Assembly: GCA_009192285.1 (NCBI GenBank)
Contig: CM018607.1
Location: 1,115,736 to 1,179,735 of the forward strand
Reading direction: 5' to 3'
Length of the DNA stretch: 64,000 bases
From: Morchella semilibera
Lineage: Eukaryota > Ascomycota > Pezizomycetes > Pezizales > Morchellaceae
Positions 1 through 64,000 of this stretch are shown piece after piece. The notes beneath the pieces were generated by a model. The model did not search any database and was not told where the DNA came from. It saw only the letters and a program-made list of their open reading frames with translations. Every line of letters starts with the position of its first letter. Position 1 is the first letter of the stretch. Made by a program: the position numbers and the translations under genes.

Positions 1-2293
1 GAGATAGGTCGGGTCGTCAACTCGGGCATTGGAAAGTGAGGATGGGCGAGAAGAAATTGCAAGGCCCCAGGGTTTTATCCAGTCGGCGCGGTGGCCTCGC
101 TAATGAGCATACATTTACCTGCCCGCCGAGTTGGTTAAAGCCTGACAAGCTCAGTGAATATATACATGTATATTCGCTCTCCTTATTGGCTCTGGTATCT
201 TTCCACTGATGGCTAGTTAGCTGCGCGTGTGCGCAGACAGTGGATTGGAAGTGAGTAGCGCGTGGCTAGATACATGTAGTTGAGGGGCACATTGATGTCA
301 ACGCCGTTGTCAATTGTTATGTAACTCGGAGCTGGTTAATCATGAGCGGTCACTCGTTGTCCTGAGACTTGGGGGGGGGAAAAAATAACAAAAACGTACA
401 TACTAACCCATCTTGCCTAATACTGTAACTCTGCTGTTAATCTTAGGTTCCTACCACTATCTAATAAGACTTAAATAAAGAACCAACTATAGCCAACACC
501 TTCCTAACTACATGTACTTCATCTACTTTTCTTGGTGTTGTTTCAAAGCGCTGGGAGATGCGCGCAGTCCCCCACGCCGCATTTATCTAGCCTCCTCTCC
601 TAAGCAGGACGAGCTAGGGCAGAATAATACCATACTGCTCCGTAAAATTTAAAACTTGAAGACCAGGCTGTCTCGCATCACATATTAGCTGGGTGACGCA
701 ATCTCCCCAAACCTAGGGCAGGCAGAACCCAAGGCCTACATACAGGGAGATGTACCTACTTCCTGGCTGCAGGGCGATCTTTGACCTGATGCTCATTGGC
801 ATAGCTCCCCCCAGCTTTGTATGGTATTCTATACTAGCGCGAGTAATCAAAATTCATGCAACACATTAATACCGGGATTCCGCTTGAGGTTGGCTGGCCG
901 GCATACTCGCTTCATACCCGGCCTCCACGACCGGCCCGCGCCGCCGAGATACCGCGCCGCAACAAATGAATCCCTCTCTAAAGTTAAAAGGAAGTCCTTA
1001 CACTACAGTAACCTAAACTCAACAGAGACAAACAGTCAAATGGTTTCCTCCCACGGATCTAGGAATTCCCAGCAATCTGCGCAGATGTTCTACAGATGGT
1101 GTTTTAGGGCTTCGACGCTTCGTATCGGCTCACACTGGGGCTAGCCGGAAAGCGACTAGTCAGGGCACGAAAAAATTTACCGAGTGTTTTACTTAAGCTT
1201 TTTACCATAGCCGAGTCAGGGCACTGACTTCCGAGACTCCCCAGCGAGGCTAGTTACATAGTGTTATTGGTTAGCTCAAGACGGCAAGTCAAGGCAGCCG
1301 GGTACCTAATGTAAGTACTTGAGAGGCATCTTTTTTTTTTATATACTCTACTTGATACTTTTGAGGGAGAAAAAAGAATGTCCGCGTGGTCAACTCCCAA
1401 CTTGACCAAGCACATACTTATATACCCTAGATATAAAAAAATCTTTTGGTTGTGAGAGGAAATATCACACCTAGGCCTCGACAACGCATCTGATTTATTA
1501 TGTCAATACCTTTTAGAATATTTAGAAGCAGTATAGAATCTCCAGACATTGACCATGAACTCACTGAGTAAATGCACCAACGCTTCTCCAAGCTCATCCG
1601 TCAAAATCCCAAGCCAGGCCTGCCCCACATATCTCGCTGGCATCGGCATCAAAAGTTTAAATTTGCTCACAAAATACATCTGGACCCGTGGTTTCCTTTC
1701 CGCAACTAGCAAGGTTCAGTCAACCCAGACAGGTACCATCGTGCAAAGTCAAGGTCAGCAGGTGTTGGACATAAAGTATGCGAGTTGAAAGTGCTCTTAT
1801 CGTGAAAAGATTTTTTTTTATCTCTCGGCCCCCATCTATCAATCCACACCCCTGTTTTAAGTAACCCGTTACCGGATTACCGAAGGAATGGAATCCTCCT
1901 GACCACTCAGAAATTCTTCCAGATGTGCCAAGAATATAATAGTAGCACCCCCTGGAAAGAAGTGAGTGATCGGAGCGTAGTGCTCCGCAGCTGCTATCTT
2001 TTTCATGCAACTGACACTGTTGGGTTAGTGAGCTACTGGGATGCAGCAGATGTATGCTTTGGGGTCACATCAGGTTGGATTAGGTTATTTGGGCTGTCAT
2101 ATGAAAGAAGAAGCAAGCTTTCTCTTATCAAGAAGCCCTTTCTTAATATATAGAAAAGCCCCCGTGGAACTCGAAAAAGTATTAACTCCCCCTTCCAGCA
2201 TTGATTGTAACGGCTCAAAGAACTCAATCCAACTATCGCCCACGAAGCTGAAAAGAAACCCGTACGACGAACCAGCAACAATTCTCAGCCAAA
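1..2293. other. Intergenic region, no gene seen
   Basis: No open frame here has a recognisable domain or codon pattern. The stretch holds several copies of the palindrome TACATGTA (near 163, 270 and 511), a G run near 371 and a T run near 1331. The last 100 bases are the likely promoter and leader of the MFS transporter gene that starts at 2294. Confidence 0.5.
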
Positions 2294-4233: not shown

Positions 4234-7200
4234 TAAGTTTTATTAGATTCCTCTATATTTACGAGCTTCTTGGAGAGGATAAGAGAGGAGATGTGACCCA
4301 CCAACGCGGTGCAATGCTTCTTTTGTTTTTCCGGTTTTTTGTTTGATCTTGTTTGGTTTATGATATAAAATGGGGTTATGGATATATATCCACAGGGAAA
4401 GGGTATAACCGCAATTGGAGTGCACACGGCGGGTGTTATTTGGGAGTTCAAGACTTCGGGTTATATAATAAAATATTTTATCCAAATGCGGTTGTGCCAG
4501 GATGCGGAATTTATTGTTTTTTGAGCGAGTGATAACATGTGATTACATGTAACAACAGTGTCTTGGTGAAAAAAAGAAAGGTACATAGGCATTCCGTTCC
4601 TGCTGTACTCGTGATAGGCAACAAGTACCCAAAATATGGCTGCGTTACATTAGTGTATTTTTTTTCCTTTTATTCCAATATATTCCAGGACTTACATATT
4701 CGGGTAATTCATACCTGCTAGTAACCCCAGTGAACTAAACTTTAGAGCCAGGTCGGATTGCAACTGATCTCAGCCTTACGGCTTGTTTTATTGCCTTAAT
4801 ACCGGGAGCGGTGCTGTTCCCGTGTATGTAGCTTCCAGACTGACATGATGTCTATTAATGATTGGCCCAAAAGGAATTAAAACCGAATATCTCCCTGTAG
4901 TCTGTGATCAGCCTCATGTTGTAGTCCAGCCACACTTCTGAGGTTACGGTAGGTACGTACTTACATGTACATACATGATGTGTGTCGACTGATGGTGCCT
5001 GCCCAAGAGTCAGGAACAAAGGTAGGAGGATAGTGTGAAGCTGAGGTATCCCATCGATACTGGCTGATCGGAACGGCCCGCTATGCGGCGGAGTCTCAGC
5101 TACATGTATGTAGTAGGTAATGGGGTTGGTGATGCTAAGAGGGGAAGGCTTGGTGACACGCAGCGCTTTAGATATGATGTATCTACATTTACCTCTTTAT
5201 AAGACTACATGTATATAATCTTAAATGCTGTGGTAAAGTACGATTACGTCATGTACTTATATCAAGTACATACATACCCCTTTGAGCCCGGCTTAGGGAC
5301 TGTAGATAACCGTCCTCTGTTTATAATTATCCCATGTATTGATCACGCGTAGGGGATTGCATGAATTTAGACTCTGTCTGGTCATTGGCTCAGATCAATA
5401 GTGTGCGTGACCTTAGACATATGTAGGTAGAGTACCCTACTCTATCGCAGTAGACTGAGAGGTATTTCTTCAGCTTATCCGGCCCGCAATTTTACCCCGA
5501 CTATACCTAGTAGAAGAGGGCAGGTACAATACTTCTAAGACGATGTGTAGAGTAAGAACTACATGTGCTCTGTGCTCTTGATAGGCCGTGTCAGATCGGT
5601 AACCGATCCCGTGCCAAGGCACACACACCTCTTACTTGTGTTGTATTTGGGGGTGGTGGTAAGGGGGGCAAGACAGCTTTGGAACCGAACGCACTCGAGA
5701 TCCAAGCGAATGATAAAACGATACCTGTCCCGGTTCGGTTAAAGCTTAGATTCAGGGTCGACTGGGGGATTGGCCCTACATGTAGTTATTAAAACGTAGA
5801 GTAAGAAAAATATGTGCTTATGAGTACTTACATGTATGTACAGTAAAGATCTATATATATACATGTACTCTACACACTTTCAGCTACCTCTTCTCTTACA
5901 TACTTTTTGTGAGTGTTCTGTGTGCTTTATTTCCGATCGATTATCTGACTTTTGTGTGGAGTCATTGGCTCTCACTCGGACGGATTTTGCTAGCGGTTCC
6001 TCACCCCACCTACTTGTACCTACATGCAATCACTTCGCCGAGATGTTTACTCCCGGGAACCACGGCCTGGCTGAAATAAAATTTAAAATTTTGGACCTAA
6101 TTTTTGGACAGCCATCAATGTAACAGAGGAAGGAGGCCCAGAGAGCTCTCGATCCAGGCTATCTATTCCGGCTGGCTGGCTATAAGCCATTATGATTGCA
6201 TGACGTGACTTCGGAGACCGATACTTGTGTTTCTTTCAAACGCTTTCCTCAAACCCGCAGGACAAGGGAGGATTATATATATGTAACTACATGTACATGT
6301 ACCTACCTGTAAAATACATCACATGATTATAACAGGGTCTTTATCAAGTATCTACTCACTCTGCCAAAATTAAAATGCCGCTTACTTAATATTCTACGAA
6401 CACGTCAACGCACAGGAAGTTTTAATGGTTGGTTTAAAAAGGGCCCTTTGTGCAGCAGGAGCGGCTGCATAGAGGCACCTGTTACCCTGCTCTACAGCGG
6501 TGATCAAAACCACTGGGTGTTTTGAAACGCTTTACATCAAGCCTCGCGCTCGCAAAGCCACTCGGACAAAAGCATGAGATGTGTATCGAGACCAGAAACA
6601 CGGTGGCTGGCTAGCTGACTGGATGACCTGTGAAGTTTCCACTGTAGGTACAAAGTAACCTTCTGACAGTGTTGCTGTTGCGATTTCTGTTGGCTAGTCG
6701 GTAAGCGTTGTGTCTTGCATGTTCTTGGCGGCAGCAGCAGTCTCTCGCGTGGTCGAAAATAGTAGCAAGCACAAATCGGTATTCACAGTACCGGGTAGGT
6801 AGAGTCGGTACCTACCTGTATGTATGTACTTGTAGGTACACTGCTAGTACTAGTACATACTTGATACTAACCAACTACTAGCCCAGGCTCGCTCTAATCT
6901 CCGTGATCAGGACCAAAGAATTCGCACTAACACACATCCTCTATCCCTCATCTCGGCAGTTTGTAAAATTTTCCTAGCTAGACGCAACCTAAGGCAAGTG
7001 TCAGGATCTGAGGAGAGGATGATGGCTCTTTCACTCGGAACGCTCTTGCAGATGGGAAGATCGGCCTGGTTGTTGCGGCTGTCGGTCGCCCGCCAGATTG
7101 GGAGCGGTTGACTCAAAGGAAGACTTAACTGGGTCAGCGGATTTTATTTGAGCTCGGACCCTGAAATAGCGTTCAGAGAACCCGTTGTGCGTGTTGTTGG

Positions 7201-9053
7201 GTGTGGGGGCCATGGGTTTTACGACCTTGGCCCTTGGCAGGCATTGTTCAATCACACAGCAGACAACTTGGGAACTGGTAAGTATTATATACATGACGGG
7301 CCGCCGCCAGACGTCTACTAACAGTCACAAACTATAAAGATCAATTGAGACAGCCAGCCTCCCGCTCTCTCGCGCTGGAGATGCTTGTTTTACGGGATCG
7401 GAATCGGATGCAAGCTGCGATTATCACATAAGTAGGTACGTAGGAGAGGGAACATGTATTTCTTCTTCACAGCGTGGAAAGGACCCAGCCGAATGGAGCC
7501 GCCACAACGGCCAGCCACAAGCGAGGAGCAAGTATGCACGGCAGGACTTTTGACGAGGGGGGGCCGATGCGGTAACATGGCCTGCCTATCGATTCCAGGG
7601 ATTGGACAATTTCAAGCAGGGAAGTTTACAGGAGATTTAGAGTAGGCAGCACATCATCATCGAGAGCCCAACCACAAGGCAAAGCAAGGCAGCGTTCGTT
7701 GTTCCAACATTATCCAAGGTTGGACGACAACCGACAACGATGGCGCTGGTGATGATTACGAGCAGATAGACAGTACTACTTTCACCTACCTGGCCATGGT
7801 AGAGTACCTAAGTAAGTACATAAGTACATGTACATACCGTACTCTCTTCCCTTACTCCGTTCAGCGAGTCGCAGTTCAGGAATACTTCTTCTTCCCCCCC
7901 TGTCTGTTCCTCATGTGGGGGAGGGGGGAGGGAACGAATCTACAGTTCAGGCTTGTTCCTGGAACGTTTGACGCCGTAGCTGGGTAACCATCATCATCGC
8001 TGCAGTAGGTAAATAGAATTGATTCGATTCCAGAACTCACTCTCTATTTATTGTATTAGGCCGTCAGCTGCAGATGTCAGAAAATGTTTCTAATTCTTAC
8101 TTTTTTTTTCCTTTTTTTTTTTTCCCTGATACATAGTATATTTATGTATGCCATTGTAATAGTTGGTTAACCTTACTTTACTCTCAAGCCTTACTCCATT
8201 CTTATCCCCATTTTTTTTTCCCTTCCCCCCTCCTATTTTCTCTCCAGCTTTTGCGTCGTCTCAGGCCTTGGTTTTCCCGTGTCTCTCCATTACACTACTG
8301 ACCCAAGTGTATGAGATAATTCCGTTCCGCACTTCCTTCCTTTAAGTGAATGATCCCTCACCCCAGCAACTTCCTGTCCCAGCCACCAACCACATCAGGC
8401 ACACCCCCCTCCCCCCTCCCCGCCTAGTCTTCCTCCCGAATCCCTCGTATTTTTTTGTGTGCAAGTCCCTGGAATATGTACCTACATGTACTTTATGTTC
8501 ACATCTATCCCCCCCCCCCCAGTCCTGTAAACCCGTAGAACCGTAGACCACAGTCCGCCCACCCACAATTGGTTTATTCCCTCTCAGTCCTCTCCTTCTT
8601 CCCTCAAACTCTCCCCCCCCCTCCCCCCATTTCCGCTCCACTCCACCACACCCCTTGCAATTACCACTTAACCAATCATTCCTGCCTGCAATCGTATCAA
8701 TTTATGACTTGTTGTCTCCACGACGACAGCTGTACCATCGCTCCTCGCTTCTCCTTCCATGCTCCCCGGTAACCATCCTCCAGCGAGTCCTACCTATCGC
8801 TCTCCTACAACAGCAGCAGCAGCAGCAGCAGAACTATCATCACACTCGTACCTATTCAACCTGCCGACCTGAACCCACCTCTTACTTCAGCCTCGTCATC
8901 CCCCATCACCTTCCCCCACCCCCCCCCCCCCACCCCTCAGGAAAAAAAAAAAAAAGATATTAACAATCACATTCATCAGCACCCTCTCAATCCCCCAAAA
9001 TTTCGCGAGTAAACGGCCGCAAGCAGTGGTGGAGGCTCTGGTGTGGTAAAGAT
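4234..9053. other. Long intergenic region, no gene seen
   Basis: About 4.8 kb without a supportable gene. It is rich in TACATGTA and its relatives (near 4964, 5101, 5203, 5777, 5830, 5863, 6289, 7824 and 8483) and in GTAGAGTA (near 5430, 5550, 5798 and 7800). Short frames on the minus strand at 6907-7294 lack homology I recognise and have no splice partners. The last 900 bases are strongly pyrimidine-rich. Confidence 0.5.
8100..9053 (+). promoter_or_regulatory. CT-rich promoter/leader of the 9054 gene
   Basis: The stretch has long T and C runs, many CCT/CTC blocks, a CAG trinucleotide run near 8810-8832 and a poly-A near 8943. Pyrimidine-rich leaders just upstream of the start are common in filamentous fungal genes. 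The transcription start cannot be placed from sequence. The downstream ATG at 9054 opens a long coding frame, so this stretch most likely combines core promoter and 5' UTR. Confidence 0.4.
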
Positions 9054-11691: not shown

Positions 11692-14600
11692 AAGCGCCCC
11701 GCACCACATTATTACTTTTTTTCAGATGTTTTATGAAAATATCTGTCCATTCATTTAAAATTTTCTTTGTCTTTGTGAGAACCAGATTTGTCTCGAAGTT
11801 TGCTGCCTACGCACCCCCAATACCTTTCTTTTGTGGTAGAACTGTGTCTTTTCTTTTGTCAGGTCAGAGTGGATATCCGTCCCCAATGGGGACTGCTTTT
11901 TCAGACTTTTTAGTGTGTGTGTGTGTTTGTGTGTGTTTGTGTTTGTGTTCGATTTCTTTTTGTCTACTGTATGAATCCTTTTACTTCTTATGTATAGGTG
12001 GGTGACATCACCACTATTGATTGATAACGGTGATTATCTCCACCTGTTAGGGCATGCGAGTGTGTGGGGTCAAATGGGACGGTTTGGGCGGGCTATCTGG
12101 GCACCGGTTTTTTTCTCTCTTCACTTCCATTTATTCCTTCTTCATATCTTTATAACTGGGTCTTTTTTTCCTCTTTCTCTTTCTGTTTTATCGTGGTCAG
12201 CATCACTAAAAGGTTGAGGCGGGCGGGCGGGCGTGCGGGCTATGGAGCATTTCTCGTGAATTTTTTTTTTGGTGGTGGGGGTTTGCTTTATTATTTGTTC
12301 CACTTCTGCTTATTACTTTACTCATTCTATTATTATTACTACTACTACTTACATGTAGTACTACTGCTTATTACTATTCTGTTATTTATCTTGGGAAAAA
12401 TCTTATTTCTTCTTCTTCGGCTGTTAGATATCAAACTTCCTCTTGTTCTTTCACTTTTTGCTACCATACCGTGTTTAATTTGGATTAAATTTTTCCCCGT
12501 GTCTTTTTTTCTCTATTTTACCTGTTACCTGTTATCTGGCGGACCTCCCGATTTTTCTTTCGGATCCATGCATGGGGCTGGCTAGATCTCTTCTGTTTTT
12601 TTTACACCGGGTTTCAGACTAGGCTAGATCCTTAAAATAAAAATAAAAATAAACAAAATGGGAAATAAGCCGATCTAATCTCCCAAGCACCCACCACCCT
12701 TTTTACATGCCCAAACATCACCACATATCACTCGCACCCTCCCCTTAACCAGCACCCACGCTCAACTCACCAAGTATCCTCTACCCTTACACTCAGACCA
12801 CCGGCTACTCTCGGCCGGCCTTATCCCCCTAAGCACTCCATTGGATCTAGTCAGAGTCTACGATCTTTACGAGCACAAGCCGTTTCACCAATGACCTTTT
12901 CCAAACGCTAGTTCTTTGCAAAGCGCCGATGATCGCAGATCAGTCCGTCTCAGACACCCACGCTGGTGGGGATTAGTGGAGCCAAGAAATTTGCTGGATT
13001 GTTTTCAGTTATCGTAAACACAGGTGTAGTGTGAGTTTTGGGCTCCTCTGGGCCAATTATATGGGGGGAGTAGAGGTGGTGGTGGATCCCTGCGATCTGT
13101 GATCAGTGGCTTGCGGGCCTCGCTGAATTTCTGGCTGGTCGGGGTAAGATCCCGGTGGCTTGGTTGGAGAGCTTGAAGAGGGGTAGGGTAGCCCCTCTGG
13201 GGCCGGCAGCGGTTGATCATGGATGGTGGGCCCTCGGGAAGTGCAGAAACAGACCAGGTGGCAGCGGTAACAAGGCATGATAGACGAGGAGGAGGATAGT
13301 TTTACAGTCAGGGAAAACAGTGGCTGAGAGGTGATGTTGATACATGCAGTAGTAATGGTAGTGGTGGTAGTGATTGCAGTGATCTAGTGATCTAGTGATA
13401 TATGTCGGTATTGACGTTTGATTCGATGGTGGGGAGGAGGAGGAGGGGTTGTTGTCGTTGTCGTTGTTGTTGTTGTTGTTGTAGGTACTAGGTCAAAATT
13501 TTTCAGAAGGTGTATATAGAGTCTCCCTATCAAGCCACCCATCTATAGTATTAAACATGTACGTACGTACATACATGTACTTACTTAACGCATAATACGA
13601 AATTGACTTCGTGTCGATATTATACGTAATTTCACTTCCAACGGTGGGAAATTAGTCCCTCCCTAACATCCACCAATGAGAAGTTTTCACACGTGAAAGA
13701 CGTATTCATCAGGGGATAACTTTTCCTTTCCTATTGCTCACTGTTTTATGAAACCTCCTTCACCTATGGCCCAGTTCCGTTCACACATCCCAAGCAAGGC
13801 AAGACAACTTGTAATCCAAGAAGGCAGAGAGAATCCCGGTTCCTTACAGCTGCCCGGCACCAAACCGGCGGGATTGGCCGGCTATCTATGCATGAGTGCT
13901 TCTTTCCTATCTACCAGCGCTAATGCATCAACGGGACAGCTGGAGACGTCGACTGCTTCAAGCATTCTTTTGGCCTTGTTCACCGACCAAACACAACCTC
14001 TGAGATGGCAAGACCACGAGGCTACGACACCACGGCCGGTACATGTGCGTTCCCAGGTACGTATCTCTAACTCTCTTTATCACCTGAAGTGAGACAGTGC
14101 TAACGATGGACACACAGTGTACCTGCAGTGACATTAGAGTAATAACAGCAAGACCTAATCAGATAATCTATTAGGGCTCGGAAGTTAGAGTCGTCATGAT
14201 CTGTAGTCAAACTGCCAAGTACCAGGCTTCCTTTGACATCCTATTGGTCCAAGTTCCCACTTACCATCCGGAGGTATTATCCGATTAATGTTTCTGAACA
14301 ACTGTTTCATAAAGCTGATGCTGAGACCTCAAGATATCATGAACACTATATGAACTACCAAGCGTTAACGAACATATATGCAGTGCCAGCACCTCCATAG
14401 AAATGATCCAACATATCTCAACGGACGTTAGTATATATTCAAGGCCCAATCAGAGGGTCTCAGCTTTGATTTATGGGGTTTCACTATCAAAAAGGAATAC
14501 TGGGATTCTTGGCGTCTTCAGGGTCAGGGTTGTGGCGAGAGACCGAGTGATAGCACATGCCTGCATTTCTATAACTAATAGTTGGCACCAGTGCACCGGG

Positions 14601-18801: not shown

Positions 18802-20726
18802 TGTGGGTTATGAAAAGTGATTGAAGCTGAACGAGCTCTGTTAGAACCTGAGAGCTGTCGACACAACAGCGGTTTAACTATTATGAGGCCCCAAGAAAAG
18901 GGATATTAAGTAAGCACATATTTTTTGATAATTGTAGTGCATCCCTGTCCATTTCCAGCCCAAAGCGGAGGCAGTTACATGAGTACATGTAATTACATAC
19001 CTACATGTAGATGTATGTAGGTACTGTACTGTAGGCACCCGGTACATGTAGTTATGACAAGCATTCGCATCGTGCTCTATGTGTTGACTCTTGATACATA
19101 TCTTGGATCTTGGAGTTGGGACGGGGGTGGGTGGCCTCCGAGAGCTGATTGATTGGGGGCCGGTGTCTCTAGTTGTTGAAGGTTCTTCTTCTTCTGCCTT
19201 AGACACAGTCAGTCATCAATCATCAATCATGATCATCCATTGATCCTGGGGTCCATCTTGCTGGCATCTTGGCAGGGACCTGGGCGGGCCAGCCACGTCG
19301 ACTCTGTACTCGTATTTCGCTGACGTTTGTGGACGCGACTGATATTGCATGCCATACAAAAATACGCCAAGCTCATGATTTTGGGTGTATGCAATAATGG
19401 CCCAGTTCAAAAACGTCAGCGAAAAACGAGTACAGTGTGCAGTGTGTGCATGTAACTTACAAGTTATTTATCTGCACGCCGAAAATCGGCGCGATCTGGT
19501 GGTGGTGGTGGTGGTGGTGCTTCCTATTTGCAGAAGAGGGAGGGGGAGATCTGAAGGGGGGGGGGGGGGGTTACTCTACTCCCTGTTACATTTACCATTG
19601 TAACAATTTTCTAGAGTATACACACTTGTATGTATGGAAATGAGAGAGTTTTATTAATCAAGACAATCATTTAGAATTAGAGCCGGTTGGTTGTCGGTAG
19701 AGTAGATTTATAGATCCACAGATAGAATAGATCGAGTGCTGTTTGTGGGTCCAGATTCGGTTTTTTTTTTTCTTTTCTTTTTTTCTTTTTTCTTCTTCCT
19801 TCGACCCTTTGTTTCTGCAGACCAACAACAGCCAGCCAGCCAGTGGTAGGAGAGGTTTGATCTACATACCTTGCTCCGAAGAAGCCTCAGCGGCTATAAC
19901 TGAGGAGAGAGAGGTAATTGATAAATTGCTTCGTTTCCTCGAATTTCCGCACTTGATCCGTGCTTTGCTTTTGCTTTTGCTTTTGCTTTTTGCTTTGCTC
20001 TGCTCTGCTCTGCTTGCTGGTTCAAAAGAAAGAGAAAGAAAGAGTCTTCTAGAGAGAGCCTCATTCCAGATCCAGCCTTTCTACTACTGCCCGATCTCCA
20101 CAAACACTTGACCTGACTTATTGAAGCCTGACTGACTGATTATCTGACCCCAAGTGGGTTCGTGATTTGAATTGCAGCAATCACCAAGCAGCAGCAGCGC
20201 TGTTGTATGTACCTTAGTGCTTTTTATGTAGCCGGTATCACAGCACTCCAAGCTAGTAGTAACATCAGTCATCCCAGAACACATCTTCTCCTCCTCCTCC
20301 TCCTCCTCCTCATCCTCCTCCTCCCCCTCCCCCTTCTTCTTCCTCTTCTGCTCACTCTCCCCCACTGTTGCTGTATCCTGGTCATCTTTCCTATTCGTCA
20401 ACCTAAACATCAGCCTCCTCCTCCTCCTCCTCTCCTCTCCATCTCACACAATCATCATCATTCTCACTGACTGATTGACTATCCCCCCCCCCTCCTCCAT
20501 CCCTCCATCTATACTTACTAGTAGCATCCACGACATTCACGACATCCACGACATCTACAACATACTTCCTTCCCCTCCTTCGCATCCACTTCCCCTACAC
20601 ACGTGCATTGCAGCATCACGGCTAGAGTAGGAACCCCAACTACATCACACGTGCTGCAAGAGCCCCTCCCACCCCCCACCCCCCACCCCCACCCCCCACC
20701 CCACAGATAGGCAACAGGCAGACACG
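18802..20726. other. Divergent intergenic region with promoters and simple repeats
   Basis: This lies between ALG3 (-) and the 20727 gene (+). Near 18977-19047 is the densest TACATGTA cluster of the window (three copies in about 70 bases). A MITE-like foldback lies at 19303-19435. Simple repeats include TGG near 19500, a G run near 19557, TTTTGC near 19965 and CTC/CCT near 20285-20325. The CT-rich part before 20727 is the likely promoter and leader. Confidence 0.5.
19303..19435. mobile_element. MITE-like foldback element, about 133 bp
   Basis: The ends are inverted repeats. The left end reads ctgtactcgtatttcgctga. The right end, read on the other strand, gives the same word with one mismatch and continues cgtttttgaact. 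Inner parts also pair (attgcatgccatac against gtatgcaat), so most of the element can fold on itself. There is no coding capacity. I could not define a target-site duplication with confidence. Confidence 0.6.
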
Positions 20727-22371: not shown

Positions 22372-24065
22372 ATCCGTTCTCTCGAGCCTTTCTCCCTTGT
22401 GTTTTATACCATTTGTTAGGTTCTTTTTTGTTAGGTTTTGACTACGGGTGGTCGTAGTGTTTTTGCGTCTATGTTTGTGTTTTCTTTTTAAGCACATGCG
22501 TATTCCCTCGTTCTACTTTTCTTCTTGCTCTTTTTTCCCCTCTGCTTTCCTGTAGTAGTTGGTTTTTTGAGTTGTTGTCTATATTGCATCTGGCATACGC
22601 CCTCCCTCCCCCACCCCCGCCTGGCTGGGGAGGATGTCTCCTTTGTCCACTTTTGTTCATTTTTGTTCCCCCTTCTTCTATTCACTTTATTCATTTTATA
22701 TCATGGGTTCTTTTGGGAGTTTTACATTTATTTTCACTATTTTCGCTATCTTTGGTTTAGTGATTAGTTAGTTTGTGGTCATCTGGGGGTTTGTGGGTGG
22801 TTAGTTGTTTGATATCTGTCTGACTGTGCAGGTTGGTTTGGTTTTGGTCTTTTTTTTTTCTTCTTTTTTTTTTGGCTTTCCCGATGGATATTAATCGTGC
22901 GAGGGGGGGGGGGGGGGGTACGGTACGCGTTATGTACTTACGATATCATGAATTGGATCGGGATCATTCATTCGGGGTGGGGGGTGGGTGGATAGTTAGT
23001 TTAGTTTTTTTTTTATATCTTTGGTTATTGTGCCTCTGGGTGGGATGGTGTAGGAGGAGGGGAGGGGGGAGGGGAATACGCAGACCCAATACCCGGAAAT
23101 AAGGCATAATTAAAGATATTGGAATGTATCCAGAGGGTTTAGTGCGCGAGTGATACACCGTGATGCTGTGTTTGCCGTTGCGGTGAGTGGAGATAATGTG
23201 GACATGTGCGCAGAGGGCTCGGGGGTCCTGGGCACTTCAGCGCGGTGCTGGTGCATCACTTGGGAGAGGACTAGCAGCGGCCCAGTACATGTATCTCTAC
23301 AAGTTGTATTTAATTAAGGCTCTGGAAACAGATTTGGCCCCTTACCGTCAGACGGGTAACCGCCCAAGCGCTGATTGACTGCCGAAAGATACACACAGCC
23401 CGGCGGTATTTAGGTGGCATTAAGATAAGAGTCGAATCGAGTCTGAAGCGTATGTTTGGTCCTTTCTCCGGGTCAACTGTCATGAGATATCGGTATTTGG
23501 GTACCTCCCTCCCCATATTGATCAGTCTTCACTGGGCCGAATGGAATGGGGGAGCAGTCATGGTCGAGCTCGGTGCTTACATTTACTCCAGTGCTGGGTA
23601 GATCCGGAACTTGGGCACGCAAGCTCTTCTTGGGGTTTTCATATACAATACATGTGGATAGGGAACTGTCCTGTCAATTGATCCCAGAGGCACGAATTTC
23701 TTGCTTCTAAGACATGAAACCTGTTACCTGGCTTTACTTGACATAATAATCAATAGTGCATGGCAATATTCCCACAGATAGTGCCACCAAATAGTGGTTT
23801 AGACACAAAAAGAGAAAAACCTGCATCACACACGTGCACGTACTAAGTACAGACCGAGAATAGTACCCTTTACAGGGCAAGGACCCTTACAAAGCGAGCC
23901 GCTATATGGGGAGAGTCTAACTGTATAGGTATAATCGCGAAATCCCGAAAGTGTACAGATGCAGCCTAAGTCATATCTACCAATTAAATGGAAGAAGAGG
24001 TAAAGAAATAAAAGGATAAAAAAAAAAACACAAACATCCCAAACACCCCGCCGCCCAAGAAACAT
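22372..24065. other. Intergenic region between convergent genes
   Basis: It holds the 3' ends of the 20727 gene and of PPG1. Features are T-rich tracts, a long G run near 22902, a G/T-rich stretch at about 22970-23080 and one TACATGTA near 23287. No frame shows a domain or a conserved motif. Confidence 0.5.
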
Positions 24066-32936: not shown

Positions 32937-32954
32937 TACATGTAGATACATGTA

Positions 32955-33038
32955 CTACGGGTGTAGGGGTAAGACTGTAGACAGCGGTCGTGGTTGCAAC
33001 AGCAGTAGGTGTCTACAGACTTACCCCTACACCCGTAG
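32955..33038. mobile_element. Short foldback element, 30-bp arms, TA-flanked
   Basis: The arms at 32953-32982 and 33011-33040 (tactacgggtgtaggggtaa and onward) are inverted copies with one mismatch around a 28-base loop. TA sits at both ends. It begins 14 bp after the preceding element. It could be a tiny MITE or the hairpin remnant of one. Confidence 0.6.
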
Positions 33039-37558: not shown

Positions 37559-37560
37559 TA

Positions 37561-44723: not shown

Positions 44724-45835
44724 ATTTGGTATACGTTAATGCTTTCTTCACAGGTACCTTTTTTCTTTTCTTTTCTTTTTCTTTTCTTTTTCTTTTCTTT
44801 CCTCTGATTCAAGCTGGTGGGGGGGGGCAGGGTAAGTAAGGCGAGGCGACGAGATTATAAAAAAGGAAGAAGAATCGGGGACGCAGGTCAGACAGATCAG
44901 GGTCAAGATTGTGACAATTGAAGGTGTACGATGTAGGGTAGGAAGTATCTACTCTACTCTATGTTTTGTGGCTGCCGTGTCCAGAAATAAATTTATGGGC
45001 TGCTGCTACGCGCGCATTCCCGCGAAGAGTGAGGCTCGGATGTGCGGGGGTGCGGGACCCCTCCGCCAAGACCTGCCCAAAATGTTGGATGTAACGCGTC
45101 TCTGCGTTGCTACCTCGAGCTTCCTCCCTCCCTCACAACAGATAACAATATGAGCTCCCAGGCACAACACGCAATGTATGAGGTATGTACATAAAGAAAA
45201 AAAACAAGGAAAGAAGAAAAAAGACCATGCCGTGGTCGTCGTTGCCGTCGTCGTCTTTGCCGGAAATAGTCGGCTTCCTCACAACGCTCTCCAAGTGTCA
45301 CTTTTGCAGACGCAGGGTAGTTCGGGATCTTCCGTAATTAGCCAGGTTGATAGACCTGATATGCGGGAGATTAACGGATCCAATCAGAAGTAATAGAAAA
45401 GTAATGTGGGATTGCCTGCTGTGCAGTCATGTGGTTACTGCGCTGTACTCGTACAATAAGGTAGGTACAAGAAAGAAGTAAGGTACAAAATATTGCACTG
45501 CTGCAGGGAGTGTCATATATACATGTATGTATATGAGGTGGGCAGGCTGGTGCCAATGATCGTTCAAGCGACAAAATGAGATTAACGTCCTGCAGCACCA
45601 CAATATCGAACTTGTGCAGAGGATTTGTTAGGTATTATTCTACCCACCCCCTTTTTTTCTCTGCTGCTGTTATCACTAAACAGACACTATTATTACAACT
45701 CATATATGCATAGTCACAGGAAGACATGTACATCTACGTAGTGCACCCAGCTAGAGCTTGGCTGCTTCTTGGATCACACGGAATCACTCGATATCACCAA
45801 CACCACCCATCACTCGCTCCGCCTTTCACCGCCCA
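44724..45835. other. Intergenic region
   Basis: This is the promoter of KAP114 and the 3' flank of the secreted-protein gene. A TTTTC-rich pyrimidine tract lies at 44757-44800 and a G run at about 44819. TACATGTA lies near 45523 and TACTCTAC near 44952. No gene was seen. Confidence 0.45.
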
Positions 45836-46574: not shown

Positions 46575-47616
46575 AGTGGCGGATTGGAGAAGTTAAAGTA
46601 TAGATATAAAAAATACGCAGAGTGTAAAAGGAAATTTCTTTCCAAAAAAAAAAAAGGTTGTAAGGACCGGCCGGCGGTGTAGAGAAAGCAGGTGAGTATT
46701 AAGAGAGTGAATAGTGGATATGACGGTAAGCTCCCCGCGCCTCTTTTATAAACACCCAACATCCACCAGGCCCTTAGATTCCTCGGTATTGCGCCCTTTG
46801 CTTCACACCCTGACACACGAGACGTCTCGATCCCGCCCCGGACCCCCCCCCCCCCCGAAATCCGAAACCCAAACCGCTCGGCTACCCGACCGACCCACGG
46901 GTAAAACGTAAAAAAAAAAAGAGGGGGCCGAAGGAAACAATAATATATGTACTCTACTCTATTAAACACACACCCAGATGCCCACTGAGCCCTGTCCTGA
47001 CCTGCCCTGTATTGGACCTGTTGCGTCGACGTTGCCCGATAACGAACCCCCTACCCCACCCTCTATCGATAAGAAACACCCCGGTCTGGCCCGTCCCTGG
47101 AAAAAAAGATGCATTTAGATCATTACCCCCGTCAGTACCCCCGTCGCTCATGAGACCTTGGCGGTGTCACATACACCATGAGCAAGCATGTGCTGTTTGG
47201 GCCCCGCTGAGCTTCCGGTTGGTATGCTTGATACGTGAAGGGGATGGCAAGGAGAGATGTTAGTCATTATTATTGCCCTTTATTGGTGGTGGACCTGGAT
47301 GGCTGCCTGTAGTGCTTGCTTATGGAGAAGCCTACATGTAGTGACGCTTTAAGATGTAAAAAAAAAATAGTGGAAATGATGAAATAAATATTTAAAAAAT
47401 AAAAATAAAATAAAATAGGGAAAGGGAAAACTACCCTCTACGTAGCAGGCAAGAAAGACAGACAGACAGACGAAGAAAAGAAACAGAAGCCAGAAGGTGA
47501 AACGACCCGTAAAAAAAAAAAAAAAAAAAAGGGCACACGAAAAGAAAGGAAAACGAGCGCAAGAGAGAGAGAGAGAAAACAAACGACGCCGCCCACCAAA
47601 AAATCCAAACCAAAAC
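46575..47616. other. Intergenic region
   Basis: Promoter of the secreted-protein gene and 3' flank of the RING gene. It has A runs near 46647 and 46911, a C run near 46845, TACATGTA near 47333 and an A-run near 47512. No coding frame is convincing; the Phe/Leu-rich frames near 47349-47660 mirror A-rich sequence. Confidence 0.45.
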
Positions 47617-48864: not shown

Positions 48865-50598
48865 TGGGCAGATTATTGGGGGGGGGGGGGGGGTAAATAA
48901 TTGTAGTTGTGATGTGAAGTTGTTCTGGGGAGGTTGTGAGATGTGAGGTGAAGTTGAGTTTGAGGTGCGGTGCGGTGCGGTGGTGGTGAAGGTGTGAGGG
49001 TTTGGTGAAGTTGTGAGGTGTCGACGACGTTACGAGTCTCCACGTTTCCCACGAAAGTTCCAAAAAGTCAAGCTTTCATCTCATTCGCTGTTTTTTTCTT
49101 TTCTTTTCTCTCTTTCTCTCTGCCCGCATAGCATAAGAAGCACCTCATACTCCGCACATATGCATGCAGAAGCAATGCACGCCAGATAACGCATATTCCA
49201 TACAATCAGTTGATTCTGATTTCCCTGGGAGACGATAACTTGTTGTAGATTGAGTTGAGTTTGGAAAAGAAAAGAAACGAGCCACCAAAAACAGGGACTC
49301 GGGACGATCAGAAAGTCCCCCTCCCCCTCTAGGGTATATTCCCCCGCAAAACGGATAGATTCTTATAATAATGATATTAATAACTAATAATTCGATTCTG
49401 TGGACAGGAGGATCATATGATCCCACGTGCATGAAAACCAGTCCAGGAATAAGAATAAAAGATCGCCGTAGAGTATGTATGTAGGAGTCGACAGCGTGCC
49501 AAGCAGAGTAGCAGAAAGAGAGAGTGAGTGAGTGAGAGACATTGGTTCTGAAAATTCACTCATCGTGAACCCGATTTCATATACATATACAAATATCAGG
49601 TACGTACATGCCAAATTCCAATCTCAACTACACATCTCCGCAGAATAATCAATGTGCCGCGGGCCATAATAAATAAATATGATAATCTACGACCCCAGAT
49701 TCACAACCCAATCGCTCAACGTTTCATACATAGACTCCACATAATGCATCTACATACATACGGTTGTATGCAACCCTCAACCACCAGACCCGCGGGGCCA
49801 CCGGTGCATAGAATACGGTACAAGTGTTCGTCCCCTAATTCTCATCTCCATGAAACTCCCCCGGGCCAATAGTCAGATTACATGAAGTTGCATCTGCTTG
49901 GTCCCTCCGCGCGCGTGCGGGTCATCAAATGTCATTCATGTCAGCGCTGCAGATCAATACATGAATGTACATGTAGCTACAGACCCTCTACTCTACTGTA
50001 ATTATTACACATTATATACATTTAATTACCTGATTAGCAGCCATGGTAATATAAATAATCTTGAACACGATCAGAGTGCTGCTCCTGTATTATTTTATGC
50101 ATCATGTATCCCCAATTAGAAAATGACGATTTGATTGGAGCTTCTGAAAGACAAATTTGAAAATGAAAATAGCGGGCCCCAAATAAAGCTTTCTTCACTT
50201 TATCTCATCTGCCTCACCTCATTCGAACCCACCCCCAGCTCCATTCATCTATCCATCTATCCATCTATTCTTATTATTATTACTATTACTATTGATCTAT
50301 TCTCTGATTCCACGCCCGCCCGGCCACCAGACCCCAGAAACGAGTACGACAACGACGACGACGACTCGGGCCCCAGCAGCGCATTGACAGACAGACCGGC
50401 AACCAACTCTCCACAACCACCAACACCACCCATCAAAACATCCACCACCACCACCACCACCCCCTTCTTACATACAACCATTCCCAACCCATCATCATCA
50501 ACACCCCGTATAAACTTCTTTCTTTTCTTTTCTTCCCCCCCCCCCCCCCAAGATAGCTAGTAAAATAAAAATAAAAAAATAAAAAAAAATATACAAAC
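48865..50598. promoter_or_regulatory. Divergent promoter region of the RING and SNARE genes
   Basis: This stretch between divergent starts has a G run near 48875, GGTGC repeats near 48963, TACATGTA near 49968, TACTCTAC near 49990, a CCA/ACC run near 50440-50460 and a C run just before 50550. No gene was supported. Confidence 0.45.
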
Positions 50599-51401: not shown

Positions 51402-52062
51402 GGTAGGTTTGTGTTTCTCTCTTCTGTGTGGAGGAGTGAGTGAGGGAGTGTGTTGACTGATTAACTGACCGGTGGTGAGAATTCTGGATAGATTTGCAGA
51501 TTATTGCCCCCTTTTCTTTTTTCCTTTTTTCCTTCTCTCCCGGAGTTTTGGGTACAGGGTCCTCTATCTTTTTTTCCTTTTTTCTAGTCAATAAAAACTC
51601 ACGGGTGCGGAATTTTATTTTATATTTTTATTTTAGCTATATTATATATATATTTTTTGCCGGACCGACATTTTTCCGTCACCAGCAATCATTTCCGTTC
51701 TGCATGTTTTGCTTTTTTCATATCTCGCTTTTATATTCGCCCGCTTCACATTACAAGTTTGAACAAAGCCCGCGGCCAGTGGGATACTTTAAATACCCAC
51801 TACGAATTGAAATCCAAATTCCACACCAAAAAACTACATGTAGCTCTACCTACAATACAACCGGGGTAAACCGAGCAAATTAATCAATGACCCTCTCTTC
51901 CTACCATACTATCCCCATACAAACTAACCAGCCAGTAAACAATACAGCCACTACCATGGCCTTATGCAATAACACACAAACCCGCCCAGACAAAAAACCA
52001 AAAGTGAGATATTCACAATCCACCCTCTCCTCCGGACCCTAACCCTGGGCTACTACACTACC
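51402..52062. other. Intergenic region between convergent genes
   Basis: The shared 3' region of the SNARE gene and the small mitochondrial protein gene. It is T/A-rich with one TACATGTA near 51835. No coding frame was supported. Confidence 0.5.
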
Positions 52063-53106
52063 CTACTCGTCGCGCTTGGTCTTCTTCGTGGTCTTCTTCT
52101 GCAGCTCCGAGATCTCCTCATGAATCGTTCCGTTGTGAATCTCGTTGCGCTGGGCCTTGACCTATTCACCCCAACCACACACGCACACACACCCACACGT
52201 TAGCCCCCCCGCCTCTCTCTCCCCGCCACGCCTCCATCAAATCAAGCAAGCAAAAGGGGAGACCTACAAAAGCCTCAGCATCGGAGGCTAGCTCCTCGTG
52301 CCAGTGCGGGTCCTCGGTCGAGTTCTTGGAGTGCTTGCGCAGGATTGATTCCTTTCCCTTTTGGAGGACCTGTGCGGTGATGCGTGTTGTGCGTTAGCAC
52401 GTATTTTTTTTTATTTGTATCATGATGATGATGATGTACGCTAGCTAGCTAGCTTGCTGGCTACATGGCGGTCGGTGGTGGTGATGATGATGACGGTGTT
52501 TTCCAATTAATGCAGATTGATGCAAACAAAGCAGACAGACAAGGCCAGAACAGAAAAACAGGTCAATCGCAGAGGAAGAGAGGTTATGTAGGTGATATGT
52601 AATGTATGCAATGTAATGTAGGTGGAGCAAAGCAGAAGCAGGTACGGGGTTGACAGTGAAAGTGACATATATGGCGCACACGATAAGGAATGAATGGAGA
52701 GAGAGGGAGAGCGATAAAATCGTAAGGCGGGGTGATTTAGAATCGGGCCCGGTTGCGTTGGGTATCTCTCTCGGTCTCTCACTCTCACTCTCTCTCTCTC
52801 TACAACGACGACGTCTATAGGGACAGCCACGGGGACATGTTGTTTGGGGGAGAGAGATTGCGTGAAGAGGGGAGGAGGAGGAGGGGGAACTACATGTAGC
52901 TACATGGGGGTTTTGATGTATGGACGGAATAAATGCTATGTGATAATGTATGTATGTAGTCTACTGACCTCTGGATCGTTGCCGTGGCGTGTGGATGTGC
53001 TGTGGTCACTCATGCGCCGGAGTGCAGCCACGGAGGTAGTGCGGTGCACGGCAGTGATTGAGCTTCTCCGGAGGCCCTGGAGAAGAATGAGTGATGAGGC
53101 TGACAT
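52063..53106 (-). CDS. Small, probably mitochondrial conserved fungal protein (three exons)
   Basis: This is a 112-residue protein of unknown function. Exons are 53106-52969, 52369-52268 and 52161-52063, each junction in phase 0. The 600-base first intron is unusually long for this window. The N-terminus (MSASSLILLQGLRRSSITAV) is rich in Ser, Leu and Arg with no acidic residue, like a mitochondrial targeting sequence. Then GNDPEVLQKGKES, DPHWHEELASDAEAFVKAQR, and a Lys-rich tail (SELQKKTTKKTKRDE). The DPEVL and PHW-E-LAS-AEA-VKA patterns match small fungal mitochondrial proteins I recall only as uncharacterised. It is not the F1-ATPase inhibitor IF1. Confidence 0.75.
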
Positions 53107-56100
53107 TCTCTTTTTGTTTATTTGATGAGCTGTGTTGTTGTTGTGTTGTTTGGTGAGTTGTTGTTTGATGGCGGGGGGGGGGGGGTGAGTGATATCGGGT
53201 GAGTGAGTGATGGGATCGGGGATTTGATTTGATCGAGCGGGGAAAAAAAGGAAAAAAAAAAAGGGAGGAGATTTAGAATATAGATTTGACGATGTTTTTA
53301 ATTTTAAAATGAGTTGAGAATGAGGAGAAGGAGAATTAAAAAGAATGGATCGTAGGAGGAAACTGAAGTTGATATTTGTGGGGGGGAGGATCGCAAGATG
53401 CATTACGTCACAGACCTGCTTTCTGCTCTTCTCTCAGCCGTCGTCATAGACGGCCGGTTTCCAGCCGTTTCAACGGCTTTGCGAGCATCAAGACAAGCGT
53501 TGTCAATCCCGAGTTCTTTTCTTTTCCTTTCTTTCTTTCATCTACAGACTTACGTCCCTTACCTTACGTCCGAGGGACGGAATGGTACCGAGGTTACAAC
53601 GGAGAGTGAGGGGGAGTGTGTGTGTGTGTGTTCCTTTGTGTTCCTTTGTTCTGTGGGTAGGTACATGTACCTTTGATCATTCTTACCCAACATCCACATA
53701 CTTGAGGTACTCAAAGCTTGGTTGTTGAAGCAAATCAACCTGGATGGGTGGATTGGCGGTAGCTTAGCCGCTTTGGGTCAATCTTGTTTTTGGACTTATG
53801 CAAGTTCGAGTGGTAGACAGACTGGTTACTAAGCAGGAAAGGAAGGAAAAAGAAAAAAGCAGCACTTATGGCTGAGTTGAGTTGAGTTGAGCCGGACTTC
53901 CCTCACTCCGGAAGTCTCAGTTGAGGCTTGGTCTTTTAAACTCCCTTGCAGCCAACCTGCTTATGGGGAGTGCTGCCTGCGGCGTCCCCCCCCCCCCCAG
54001 AAAAAAAAACATAAATGCAAAAAACAAAAAAAAACAACAAAGAGAGAGAGAGGGGCTTGAATTCATTTCGATCCAAGCATCATCACTGGCCCTATCGGGG
54101 AATTAGGGAAGGGATCTGCAGGATTAGGTTAATATTCCACGTTATTAACCTTTGGTATGGTACGGGTACTTTTCCAACTCTGCGCCCCCCCTCATCTTCG
54201 CCGCCGCAGCGTGCGTCGGTACATTATGTACTCTATGTATGTACGGTATGTACGGCGTAAGCAGACAGAGAGATGTTACGGTAGATATACATATATGTAG
54301 ATATACGTAGGTGGTGCATCTCCCTTAATTCTTCTTCTTCCTCTTCTCCTCTCTCTCCTCTTCATTCACTTTTTACTCAGCTTCCCCGCTACTGCTGCGG
54401 CCGGGGTAGAGTGGAGTGGGGAAGTGCTGTGCTCAGAGTTGGTTGTTGGGGAAAGCGATCGGAATGCGGAGAGTTTGAGCACAAGCAGTCTGTGTCCTGT
54501 CCTGTCAGTCAGTCAGTCAGTGCGGTGCGGGCGCCGGGACGAGCCATAACAATTAACGCCTCACTTCGCTTTATACACACACCCCCCCCTCCCCCCCGCA
54601 GATTTGCTCTGGGGCGGGTAAGGAGAAAAGGGAGGGACGCCAAAGAAAGAAGCTGTGTGGAATAGGGTGTGGAAGGAATTAATTCCGGGCTCGGCTGTAG
54701 ATTTTTGTTTTTTTTCCCTTCGTTATTTAATTTGCACCTTAAACTTATTAAGACGTGCATGGAGGGAGGCTTTTAAAGTAGATGTTTCTTTTCTTTTCTT
54801 TTCTCTGCTCTCTTTGCCGCGCATACGTCTCTCTCACCCATTCCCTCCCTTAACTTAAGCTACAGTATCTATCTACTCAGCACGGTATGCGCACAAGCAG
54901 GCAGCCGATGCGTGGGGGAATGGTTTGAATGGAGTGAAAGGATGATGGACCAGGCAGAAAGAAAGGTGATGTTGCATCCGGGACTGGCTGGGGGGAGGAC
55001 TGGAACTGGGACTGGGACTGGGGCTGGCGCTTGTCTGCATCCATCTATTTTTTTTTTCCTTCTGTACGATGATGCTGGTGATAAATCCGCCCAGTGTAAT
55101 GTAGTAATTAGGGTGTGTGTTATGCTATCGGTCGCTGGGGAAGATCGTGAACTGAACAAGAATAATTCCTCAAGACGGGTGAATGCCTCTCTCACCCCCC
55201 CCCCCTCTCTTACACTGGGCTACTCTACCTGGAGTAACACGGAATGGGGGGTTGAAACGCTCGAGGAAACCAAACCCAGCAGTCTTCGAAACAACCGATA
55301 TAGAAACAGTAATTATAACTACATCTCCGAAAAATAATAATTGTGGTGGGATGTACCGTTTCCCTATGTAGCACCCACCGTCGGTAGACTCCAGGTCCCG
55401 CCCCCCCTTCTTACCCAATTGTAGACTCTTTGAGAGAAAGGCGTACGGCGTACCCTTCCTTCCCACGAGGTTCAGTTCGGAATCGGTAACCATAGGTAAG
55501 GGTAGCTACAGCAAGAAAAAAAAAAGGTTCTCTGACCCTTGAGCGAGGGCCTTTTGCGCAAGGGTTACTTACATAGACGGCCGCGACCGACTCAGCTTGC
55601 GTGCGTGCGCGCGGTAATGATGATGGTTGTGATGGTGATCGGAAATCTGCAAATTCTCACGATGGTCTCTCCACCGTAACACAGTGTACCTAAGGGTACA
55701 TGTAGGCAGAGAAGAAGGTATGTAGGTAAGTGAGTGGGCCGGACGCCCACGCCTTATTTTACTGCTTAGTTGATGATGATGGTGGTGGATGCCCACCACC
55801 GGACCGAAAATAGAGAACGAAAAAAAAAGAAAAAAAAAATATTTAACAAAGGTGCCAAACAAAAACATCCCCCCTCCCCCCCCAACGGGAAAAACGCTTC
55901 TCCGCCCCTGCCCTATCGGTGTCTGATAATAATATCTGCGGTGATATTTAGCATGGTCGGTGATAATCCAGCTTCTCGCTTGATAGCTATCTCGCTAGTA
56001 GGGTGTAGTCGGGACTCGATGTGGTGGTGGGGTTGTTGTGGTGGTGGTGGTGGTTTGTTGGGTGTTTGTCTCTCTTGTCTCAACTCCACACATGAATGGT

Positions 56101-62059: not shown

Positions 62060-64000
62060 ATGGAAGAGCGGGAGAGCCAGAAGGCTCGCGACAAACGATT
62101 GCTGCTACTTTTCAAGAACTTGGATACACGCAACGAGGGACATCTAGATCTTGAGGGGCTGAGACGAGGACTGCAGAGAATTAATCACCGTATGTCGAGC
62201 ATCCCCCCTGCGTTCCTCCCGGTTACTCCCAGACCTATTGTTACAGCAGCAAAAGGTGAATCAATCGCGAATATTCTAAACCCATTTTCTCTGCAGCTCT
62301 GAAAGACGCCGACCATTTACTACACGATATTCTCACGGCGGTTGATACTTCTAAGGATGGCCTTATCCAATACTCGGAGTTCAAGCATTTCTTTGAAGGC
62401 GCGGATAGGGAATTATGGAGGATATTTCATTCAGTGGATCTAGACAAGAATGGAAATATAGACAAAGGAGAGCTAAAAGTCGCATTGACTCGGGCTGGAA
62501 TCGCAGTCGATCCTAATCGACTGGAAGAATTTTTCGACTCAATGGATAGGAATAATGATGGCGTAATATCATTTGAAGAGTGGAGGTATGATCGCTGGCA
62601 TCCCTAAACCTCTGCCCGGGGAAGGGAACCCCGATGTGCACTTTGGGTTTGCATCTTGGGATTGCACCTGAGGTGGTCGCTGACATATTAAAAGAGATTT
62701 CTTGATGTTTATGCCGAAAGAAGCCACACTACACACGATCTATTCGTATTATCTTTCAACTGTCAGCGTTAATCCGGAAGGTGATGTAAATCTGAGTGAT
62801 GAGATTAATCTCAAAGGCTTAGGTAAATCGGTTTCATCATTAAATCCAAGCCCGCCGCTCCGCATGTTATCCCTGCGCGTCCCACATTCGTTACGAGTTA
62901 TCGATAACTGTATTCTAACCTCAATTGATCAAATAGGTTACTTCCTTGCAGGAGGTGTCGCTGGGGTAATATCTAGAACCGCGACAGCGCCATTTGATCG
63001 TATAAGAGTATTTTTGATAGCCCAAACCGCTCCCAAAGTAAAGCATGCAGCAGTTGAAGCAGTGAAAGTCGGCGAACCATTACAGGCAGCAAAAAAGGTA
63101 TCAGGACCACTCAGGGAATCTATCAGGACACTGTGGAGAGCCGGTGGTGTGAGAACATTCTTTGCAGGTTAGCGTCTGAAACGCCCCCCCCCCCGGGTAT
63201 TCAAAATCCTAAGAATAGAAATAGGGAATGGATTAAATGTCGTAAAGGTGTTGCCTGAGTCTGCAATCAAGTTTGGCTCGTTCGAGGTACGAACGACCAC
63301 CAGCTGCTCCGGTTTATATTCAAATTCTGACAAGGAAAACAGGCAGCAAAAAGGACTCTTGCGAGATTAGAAGGTGCAGAGGATGCTAGTCAGATATCAC
63401 CAATGGCCCGGTTTCTTGCTGGTGGTATTGGGGGAGTCGTTTCTCAGTGCGCTAGCATCACTCCACTTGAATTGGGAGCATCATATCTAATATATCCTGC
63501 AGATTTTCCATATACCCCATAGACACATTGAAATTGTCAGTCTAGCTCTCCCTTGCCTCAGACGTACATATGCGACGTACACTATGAAACTAACTTGGGT
63601 TCTGTAGTCGCATGCAATGTGAAACTGTTCAGAACGGCTCTATGGGCAACAAGCTAATAGCAGAAACCTTCCAAAAAACCTGGAAAGCTGGCGGATTCAA
63701 TGCCTTCTACAGAGGCTTGACTCTAGCTTTAGTTGGGATTTTTCCATACTCAGCCATCGACCTCGGTACATTCGAGTACATGAAGCGTACCTACATTAAG
63801 CGCAAAGCAAAAAAGTTAAAATGCAATGAAAAGGACGTGGAGGTACCGAATTGGTTGGTTCTTGGAATCGGAGCCACAAGCGGGAGTGTGGGGGCGACGA
63901 GCGTATATCCAATCAATGTGTTGAGAACAAGACTGCAGGCACAGGGAACAGCGCAGCATCCCCAGACTTACACTGGTATGTGGGATGTTGGGATGAAAAC
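62060..64000 (+). CDS. Calcium-regulated ATP-Mg/Pi mitochondrial carrier (SCaMC/Sal1 type), 3' end outside window
   Basis: This inner-membrane carrier exchanges ATP-Mg for phosphate under Ca2+ control. Exons are 62060-62189, 62297-62585, 62695-62822, 62937-63167, 63225-63286, 63343-63446, 63503-63535 and 63608-63975. A donor at 63976 means more follows past the edge. Four EF hands are visible: LDTRNEGHLDLEGL, VDTSKDGLIQYSEF, VDLDKNGNIDKGEL and MDRNNDGVISFEEW. Hand 1 looks degenerate. The carrier repeats follow, with YFLAGGVAGVISRTATAPFD then RIRV, GGIGGVVSQFSIYPIDTLKF then RMQCETV, and GATSVYPINVLRTRLQAQG. The 33-base exon 7 is needed to restore PIDTLKF. The ATG at 62060 begins MEERESQKARDKR as in homologues. 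Confidence 0.93.

Follow-up and report, generated by a model that had tools for sequence, protein, structure and literature searches.

The window analysed here is a stretch of 64,000 bases of Morchella semilibera DNA within contig C5 of a genome of 56.8 Mb in 23 contigs. Its genes have short introns; one is importin-9-like, and others encode a UDP-glucose 6-dehydrogenase (UGDH) and an ankyrin protein. Among them are scattered 33 exact copies of the palindrome TACATGTA, the abundance and placement of which are the subject of this analysis, and two small TA-flanked repeats of the kind known as miniature inverted-repeat transposable elements (MITEs), named CCCC-MITE and CTAC-MITE. The features are as follows; every site is an exact match to TACATGTA, and a strand is given only for the coding copy.

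163..170, TACATGTA site 1
271..278, TACATGTA site 2
509..516, TACATGTA site 3
4544..4551, TACATGTA site 4
4962..4969, TACATGTA site 5
5101..5108, TACATGTA site 6
5206..5213, TACATGTA site 7
5777..5784, TACATGTA site 8
5829..5836, TACATGTA site 9
5860..5867, TACATGTA site 10
6288..6301, TACATGTA sites 11 and 12 (matches at 6288 and 6294), overlapping as TACATGTACATGTA
7825..7832, TACATGTA site 13
8483..8490, TACATGTA site 14
12350..12357, TACATGTA site 15
13572..13579, TACATGTA site 16
18984..18991, TACATGTA site 17
19002..19009, TACATGTA site 18
19043..19050, TACATGTA site 19
23286..23293, TACATGTA site 20
32259..32266, TACATGTA site 21
32490..32497, TACATGTA site 22
32524..32531, TACATGTA site 23
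32703..32936, CCCC-MITE, small inverted-repeat element, TA-flanked (terminal repeats)
32937..32944, TACATGTA site 24, adjoins the CCCC-MITE and supplies its right-hand TA
32947..32954, TACATGTA site 25, adjoins the CTAC-MITE
32955..33038, CTAC-MITE, small palindromic element, TA-flanked (terminal inverted repeat scan, self inverted match)
34949..34956, + strand, TACATGTA site 26 in UGDH exon 2, encodes Pro-Thr-Cys of GGPTC (translation, exon context, Pfam)
45520..45527, TACATGTA site 27
47333..47340, TACATGTA site 28
49968..49975, TACATGTA site 29
51835..51842, TACATGTA site 30
52891..52898, TACATGTA site 31
53662..53669, TACATGTA site 32
55697..55704, TACATGTA site 33

A preliminary description of the window had called this word hugely over-represented, with about 30 copies. 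The 33 copies compare with a mean of 0.73 and a maximum of 3 in 100 dinucleotide shuffles, and all 17 positions named in that description are true copies, offset by 0-7 bases. When all 8-mers of the window were ranked by z-score against a second-order Markov background, TACATGTA came first (33 observed, 1.1 expected), with a poly-G/poly-C run the runner-up by a small margin. Such poly-G/poly-C runs are likewise strongly over-represented in the window (CCCCCCCC, 54.5 versus 3.1 expected). The whole genome (56,756,124 bases) contains 22,206 copies, or about one per 2.6 kb, a count that takes in some duplicate contigs (C9/C10, C12/C13), and 3,723 copies of the same word written backwards. A sample of 294 kb was assembled from the window and 25 sampled 10-kb stretches, with L011 and L014 (copies of L010 and L013) and L001 (the window re-fetched) excluded; it contains 134 copies where 5.3 are expected. 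Scaled up, this expectation amounts to about 1,000 copies genome-wide, and the excess is therefore approximately 22-fold. The density is uneven, ranging from 0 to 15 per 10 kb (variance 17.4, mean 4.6). The assembly seems to hold some chromosomes in duplicate: C9/C10 and C12/C13 have near-equal lengths, and in the allele comparison of these two sampled pairs the compared 10 kb had 0 mismatches between contigs, only indels. C21 and C22 show matches at similar coordinates.

The excess is sharply confined to one word. Among the 16 palindromes with a CATG core, the one with TA on both sides has 134 copies in the sample, and any other outer dinucleotide gives at most 13 (the next being ATCATGAT, 13), so that both outer TAs are needed. 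Among the 16 words of the form TAxyy'x'TA, TACATGTA stands 25-fold over expectation, followed by TATATATA (6.3) and TACTAGTA (3.7). One-mismatch neighbours of TACATGTA occur at 2.59 times expectation for transitions and 1.34 times for transversions, a spectrum that fits moderately well with mutation of formerly exact copies. Most of the flanking sequence is unique, in that no match in other sampled DNA (E 0.001) was found for 248 of 268 half-flanks. As the flanks facing inward between paired sites are also no more alike than controls, the possibility that TACATGTA forms the ends of an extant repeat was rejected. There is nevertheless a symmetric flank preference of the form TANN-TACATGTA-NNTA, with TA at position -4 in 103 of 268 half-flanks (background 0.096), and T is avoided directly beside the palindrome. 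TACATGTA occupies 7.6% of TANNTANNTA contexts (filled forms being included in the count), and 3.5% of ANNTANNT versus 0.6% of all other TAs. ANNTANNT is a target preference of the transposon Sleeping Beauty.

Placement relative to genes was assessed with a simple home-made gene finder trained on the sample, which gives approximate boundaries; genes whose predicted coding sequence was shorter than 300 bp were left out. The gene finder placed 131 of the 134 sample sites between genes and 3 in predicted introns, leaving 0 for predicted coding sequence, which agrees with the earlier statement that nearly all copies are noncoding. Of the 3 sites scored as intronic, that in UGDH at 34949 is truly coding, as had been reported for exon 2: it lies within the peptide GGPTC, the surrounding stretch aligns with UGDH in Pfam and PDB, and the Pfam domain UDPG_MGDP_dh_N spans residues 25-199. 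This copy is probably due to chance, one such coding copy being about the chance expectation. The intergenic sites are distributed as 22 in 26.0 kb of divergent spacers, 19 in 48.1 kb of tandem spacers and 11 in 30.6 kb of convergent spacers; the remaining 79 are in the edges of sampled stretches (105 kb), with a predicted gene on one side at most. Sites are sparsest within 200 bp of start and stop codons (1 site in 12.1 kb upstream of predicted starts, 2 in 12.6 kb downstream of predicted stops) and become denser farther out on both sides, with P = 0.004 for the first 400 bp upstream versus 400-1000 bp. Within the first 1,000 bp there is no upstream preference (28 sites in 52.8 kb upstream, 31 in 53.4 kb downstream), and convergent spacers are still enriched 15-20 times over chance. 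The suggestion in the preliminary description that the site is repeated at many promoters is thus poorly supported, and a promoter site was set aside as the principal interpretation on grounds of placement. The one contrary hint is that divergent spacers are denser than convergent spacers (P = 0.02); this difference leans toward a promoter role, and the totals upstream and downstream, which are equal, point the other way.

There is about an even chance that most copies of TACATGTA arose as footprints when Tc1/mariner-type cut-and-paste elements, or small non-autonomous copies of them, were excised. In the available part of PMC3878927, Tc1/mariner elements are described as duplicating a TA upon insertion and leaving a scar formed from overhangs of 2-3 bases by end joining. 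Like such footprints, TACATGTA has TA on both sides with candidate overhang bases between. An element inserting at TA would duplicate it to give TA-CA...TG-TA, and on departure would leave behind the outermost two bases of its ends, CA on one side and TG on the other. If both overhangs were filled and joined, TA would become TA-CA-TG-TA, which is TACATGTA, with a gain of 6 bp. Each jump would leave one scar, and therefore scars could far outnumber the surviving elements; they would collect only at places where insertion is harmless and then decay neutrally, and each would offer two TAs for new insertions. Of the readings offered in the preliminary description, that of a spreading repeat comes closest, if the repeat is taken to be a small insertion scar.

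Elements with the appropriate ends and target are present in the genome. A profile search with PF13358 (DDE_3) gave 69 matches, 57 of them above the cut-off. Three elements (L030, L031 and L034) have ends TA-CAGCG...CGCTG-TA, and L028 has the related end pair TA-CAGCA / TA-CAGCG. The middle bases of TACATGTA equal the ends of these TA-CA...TG-TA elements, and some extant elements sit in TG-TA-CA or ATG-TA-CAT. The CAGCG end pattern with at most one mismatch has 263 matches genome-wide, compared with 2 for a reversed control; 40 loci were sampled from 100 of the 263 matches listed and are mostly MITEs of approximately 90-134 bp, and 20 further flanks were sampled for a sub-type of the group, the GGTRGGTAA end variant. 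The Tc1 family of L028 was rejected as the scar source, having only 3 exact ends. When TA-x-TA fills within G-TA..TA-C were listed (palindromic fills being doubled), the leading fills matched the ends of families present (CCCC, CAGCG, CTCG). Among two-base fills CC/GG (47) and CA/TG (40) led, and each of the remaining four non-palindromic pairs occurred 10-20 times; three-base fills were led by CTC/GAG (9) and, barely ahead of the next (5), CAG/CTG (6), and four-base fills by CATG, found at 8 places with the next at 3. The end variant CAGCGGTRGGTAA (L044, L045, L054, L075-L094) differs in target preference from the CAGCGATGGGGAAAA MITEs, with G beside TA in 16 of 20 flanks.

The CCCC-MITE permits a comparison of copies of one repeat. 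This element is 234 bp long with ends CCCCGGGGGTCC..GGACCCCCGGGG, and its usual target is ATG-TA-CAT, often within TACATGTA. A first look gave 563 candidates genome-wide, of which 40 were scored, and 20 copies (L095-L114) were aligned in listing order with duplicate contigs skipped. L095 is nearly identical to the window copy (scored 100% over 244 bases, with one difference seen in the alignment); because it has TACATGTA on one side only, both the possibility that the ends extend to CATGTA and the possibility of an eight-base duplication of TACATGTA were ruled out. None of the 20 aligned copies has an internal TACATGTA. At one position, TA stands in the window copy and in most siblings, but TATATGTA in L103 and L104, which are apparently the same locus in duplicate. 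L115 and L116, found by a search aimed at this position, have TACATGTA there, and the difference from TA is a 6-bp unit. In the interiors of MITEs (the 20 CCCC copies and the CAGCG copies matching both end patterns, L115 and L116 being excluded as chosen for carrying the site), there are 0 copies of TACATGTA in 7.2 kb, where 4.6 would be expected at noncoding density; these empty interiors fit slowly collecting scars and a functional site equally well.

Overlapping sites suggest that scars may be hit again. The stacked form TACATGTACATGTA occurs 3 times in the 294-kb sample versus 0.085 expected from site density alone, and 2.45 would be expected if the TAs of a site were each struck at the average rate of 0.92% per TA. 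Among seven other palindromes, ATGTACAT has one stack in 24 copies and the rest have none in 10-14 copies each. The stack at 6288..6301 in the window is read as a footprint formed within an older footprint. That the most over-represented 8-mer of a eukaryotic genome consists of accumulated transposon scars, produced by a self-feeding cycle from TA to TACATGTA in which every scar supplies fresh preferred TAs, and mimicking a transcription-factor motif, is a tentative proposal, less probable than excision as such.

Several observations weigh against excision scars. The TACATGTA of L115 and L116 may be one event, because other variants are common to both, and loss in the siblings is possible instead of gain in these two. 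At a second TA position of the CCCC-MITE there were 5 matches, versus 2 for the reversed control, and one that was read proved to be a different sequence; at a third, there were 0 matches. A bare TA opposite TACATGTA is thus found at 1 of 3 positions probed, with the direction of change uncertain. The CCCC-ended family, though abundant, has not raised TACCGGTA above expectation (2 copies against 3.8). In the available text of PMC13148408, the typical somatic Tc1 scar of C. elegans is a gain of 4 bases, not 6, and taCATGta appears in the part of PMC3520976 consulted as a rare Tc1 footprint in that species; unlike C. elegans Tc1, the scars of M. semilibera would be dominated by the 6-bp form, with about 22,000 copies. 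The corresponding +4 word TACATA/TATGTA shows no clear excess outside tandem arrays, with 354 copies in the sample, 186 after removal of tandem arrays, and about 200 predicted by a model that, like that for TA spacing, took in L011, L014 and L027-L034. Scars would outnumber surviving CAGCG ends by approximately 80 to 1. The TANN..NNTA preference is absent from 64 flanks of the 40 CAGCG loci, and from the 20 flanks of the GGTRGGTAA variant, which favour TG before TA (neither set is fully independent, L075 and L094 sharing the same flank and L053 and L094 the same place); in view of these flanks the putative scars may stem from another family. The CAGCG insertion loci contain 15 TACATGTA in 11.8 kb, at 12 of 60 loci, which is commoner than average; this abundance could be due to hot spots or target choice, so that part of the signal cannot be separated from target preference. 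The transition/transversion ratio of the neighbours of TACATGTA ranks only 9 of 256 palindromes, and the denser divergent spacers also count on this side.

The main rival is a possible, though somewhat doubtful, role of TACATGTA as the target of an abundant protein that binds DNA sequence-specifically, such as a homeodomain factor of homodimeric or TALE type. The protein would make weaker contacts at the TA steps four bases out, and selection would maintain the site at thousands of intergenic places. The perfect palindrome with its symmetric TANN..NNTA extension would be explained by such a protein, as would the clustering (the per-10-kb variance well above the mean), the absence from predicted coding DNA and the bias toward divergent spacers; moreover, this word has been predicted as a promoter motif in Phytophthora, and Irx homeodomains are named as preferring it, as far as the available part of PMC3520976 goes. 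The sparseness within 200 bp of start codons, the lack of upstream preference and the enrichment of convergent spacers argue otherwise, as do the 6-bp unit by which repeat copies differ, the stacks that are commoner than site density predicts, and the one-mismatch spectrum that leans to mutational decay. It is rather unlikely that TACATGTA is a signal of chromosome architecture, replication or DNA modification, spread between genes independently of transcription in the manner of bacterial highly iterated palindromes. A frequency of about one per 2.6 kb throughout the genome, in noncoding DNA without upstream preference, would suit such a candidate signal, but the density is very uneven, and the pairing of TA with TACATGTA within a repeat points to insertion. 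The HIP1 sequence of cyanobacteria is a palindromic octamer hugely over-represented genome-wide; it differs in sequence from TACATGTA, which belongs to a eukaryote and lies almost entirely in noncoding DNA.

Two further explanations carry little probability. TACATGTA could have arisen incidentally as TA-rich tetranucleotide quasi-repeats (TACA, TACC, TATG) expanded by slippage, an account in line with the enrichment of TACATACA, GTACCTAC and GTACGTAC as well (in a 314-kb set that still has L011 and L014) and with the over-representation of TA steps at even spacings; it is made improbable by the 52 of 134 sites that have no TA at either +/-4 position and by the height of TACATGTA above every other palindrome of the same form. 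Least probable of all is that TACATGTA is a target rather than a scar, chosen by elements but made by another process. Insertion of CCCC-MITEs in ATG-TA-CAT, often inside TACATGTA, and the frequency of TACATGTA at the CAGCG insertion loci would both follow from target choice, which accounts for the association but does not say where the approximately 21,000 surplus sites came from.

The preliminary description knew of no described factor for the palindrome, which is not quite right. The identical palindrome is motif-1/M93 of Phytophthora, which the available parts of the published accounts place upstream of 12,070 Phytophthora genes, with 4,150 copies in P. infestans promoters, and describe as located in upstream regions and correlated with expression; the gel shifts named in those parts are for M51, M58 and M75, not M93. 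The authors of PMC3520976, as far as its available text goes, weighed a transposon footprint as the source of the palindrome and set it aside, and named TACATGTA as the preferred site of Irx homeodomains. Unlike motif-1/M93, TACATGTA in M. semilibera is no denser upstream than downstream of genes, and few copies lie within the first 200 bp. In the literature searched, which left most subscription journals outside, TACATGTA as a whole word was found only in Phytophthora papers, as a predicted regulatory motif, and among the matches listed there was no report of such an accumulation in a fungus and nothing on fungal scars. If the copies are scars, the count of one sequence would record thousands of occasions on which a transposon departed, motif-discovery programs could take repair scars for regulatory sites, and the identical Phytophthora motif could be rechecked, the same reading being perhaps worth testing there. 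Otherwise, some 22,000 exact palindromes without a promoter-proximal peak would be a still stranger unexplained feature.

Other small repeats were encountered during the analysis. The CTAC-MITE is approximately 85 bp long, near-palindromic and TA-flanked, with ends CTAC..GTAG, and was found in the window (32955-33038), in L002 (4815-4904) and in L059, where a CAGCG-MITE adjoins or breaks a copy. More short inverted-repeat elements, several of them TA-flanked and apparently belonging to at least three families, are located in the window at 37383-37558, 37573-37663, 39972-40146, 59727-59817 and 19307-19430.

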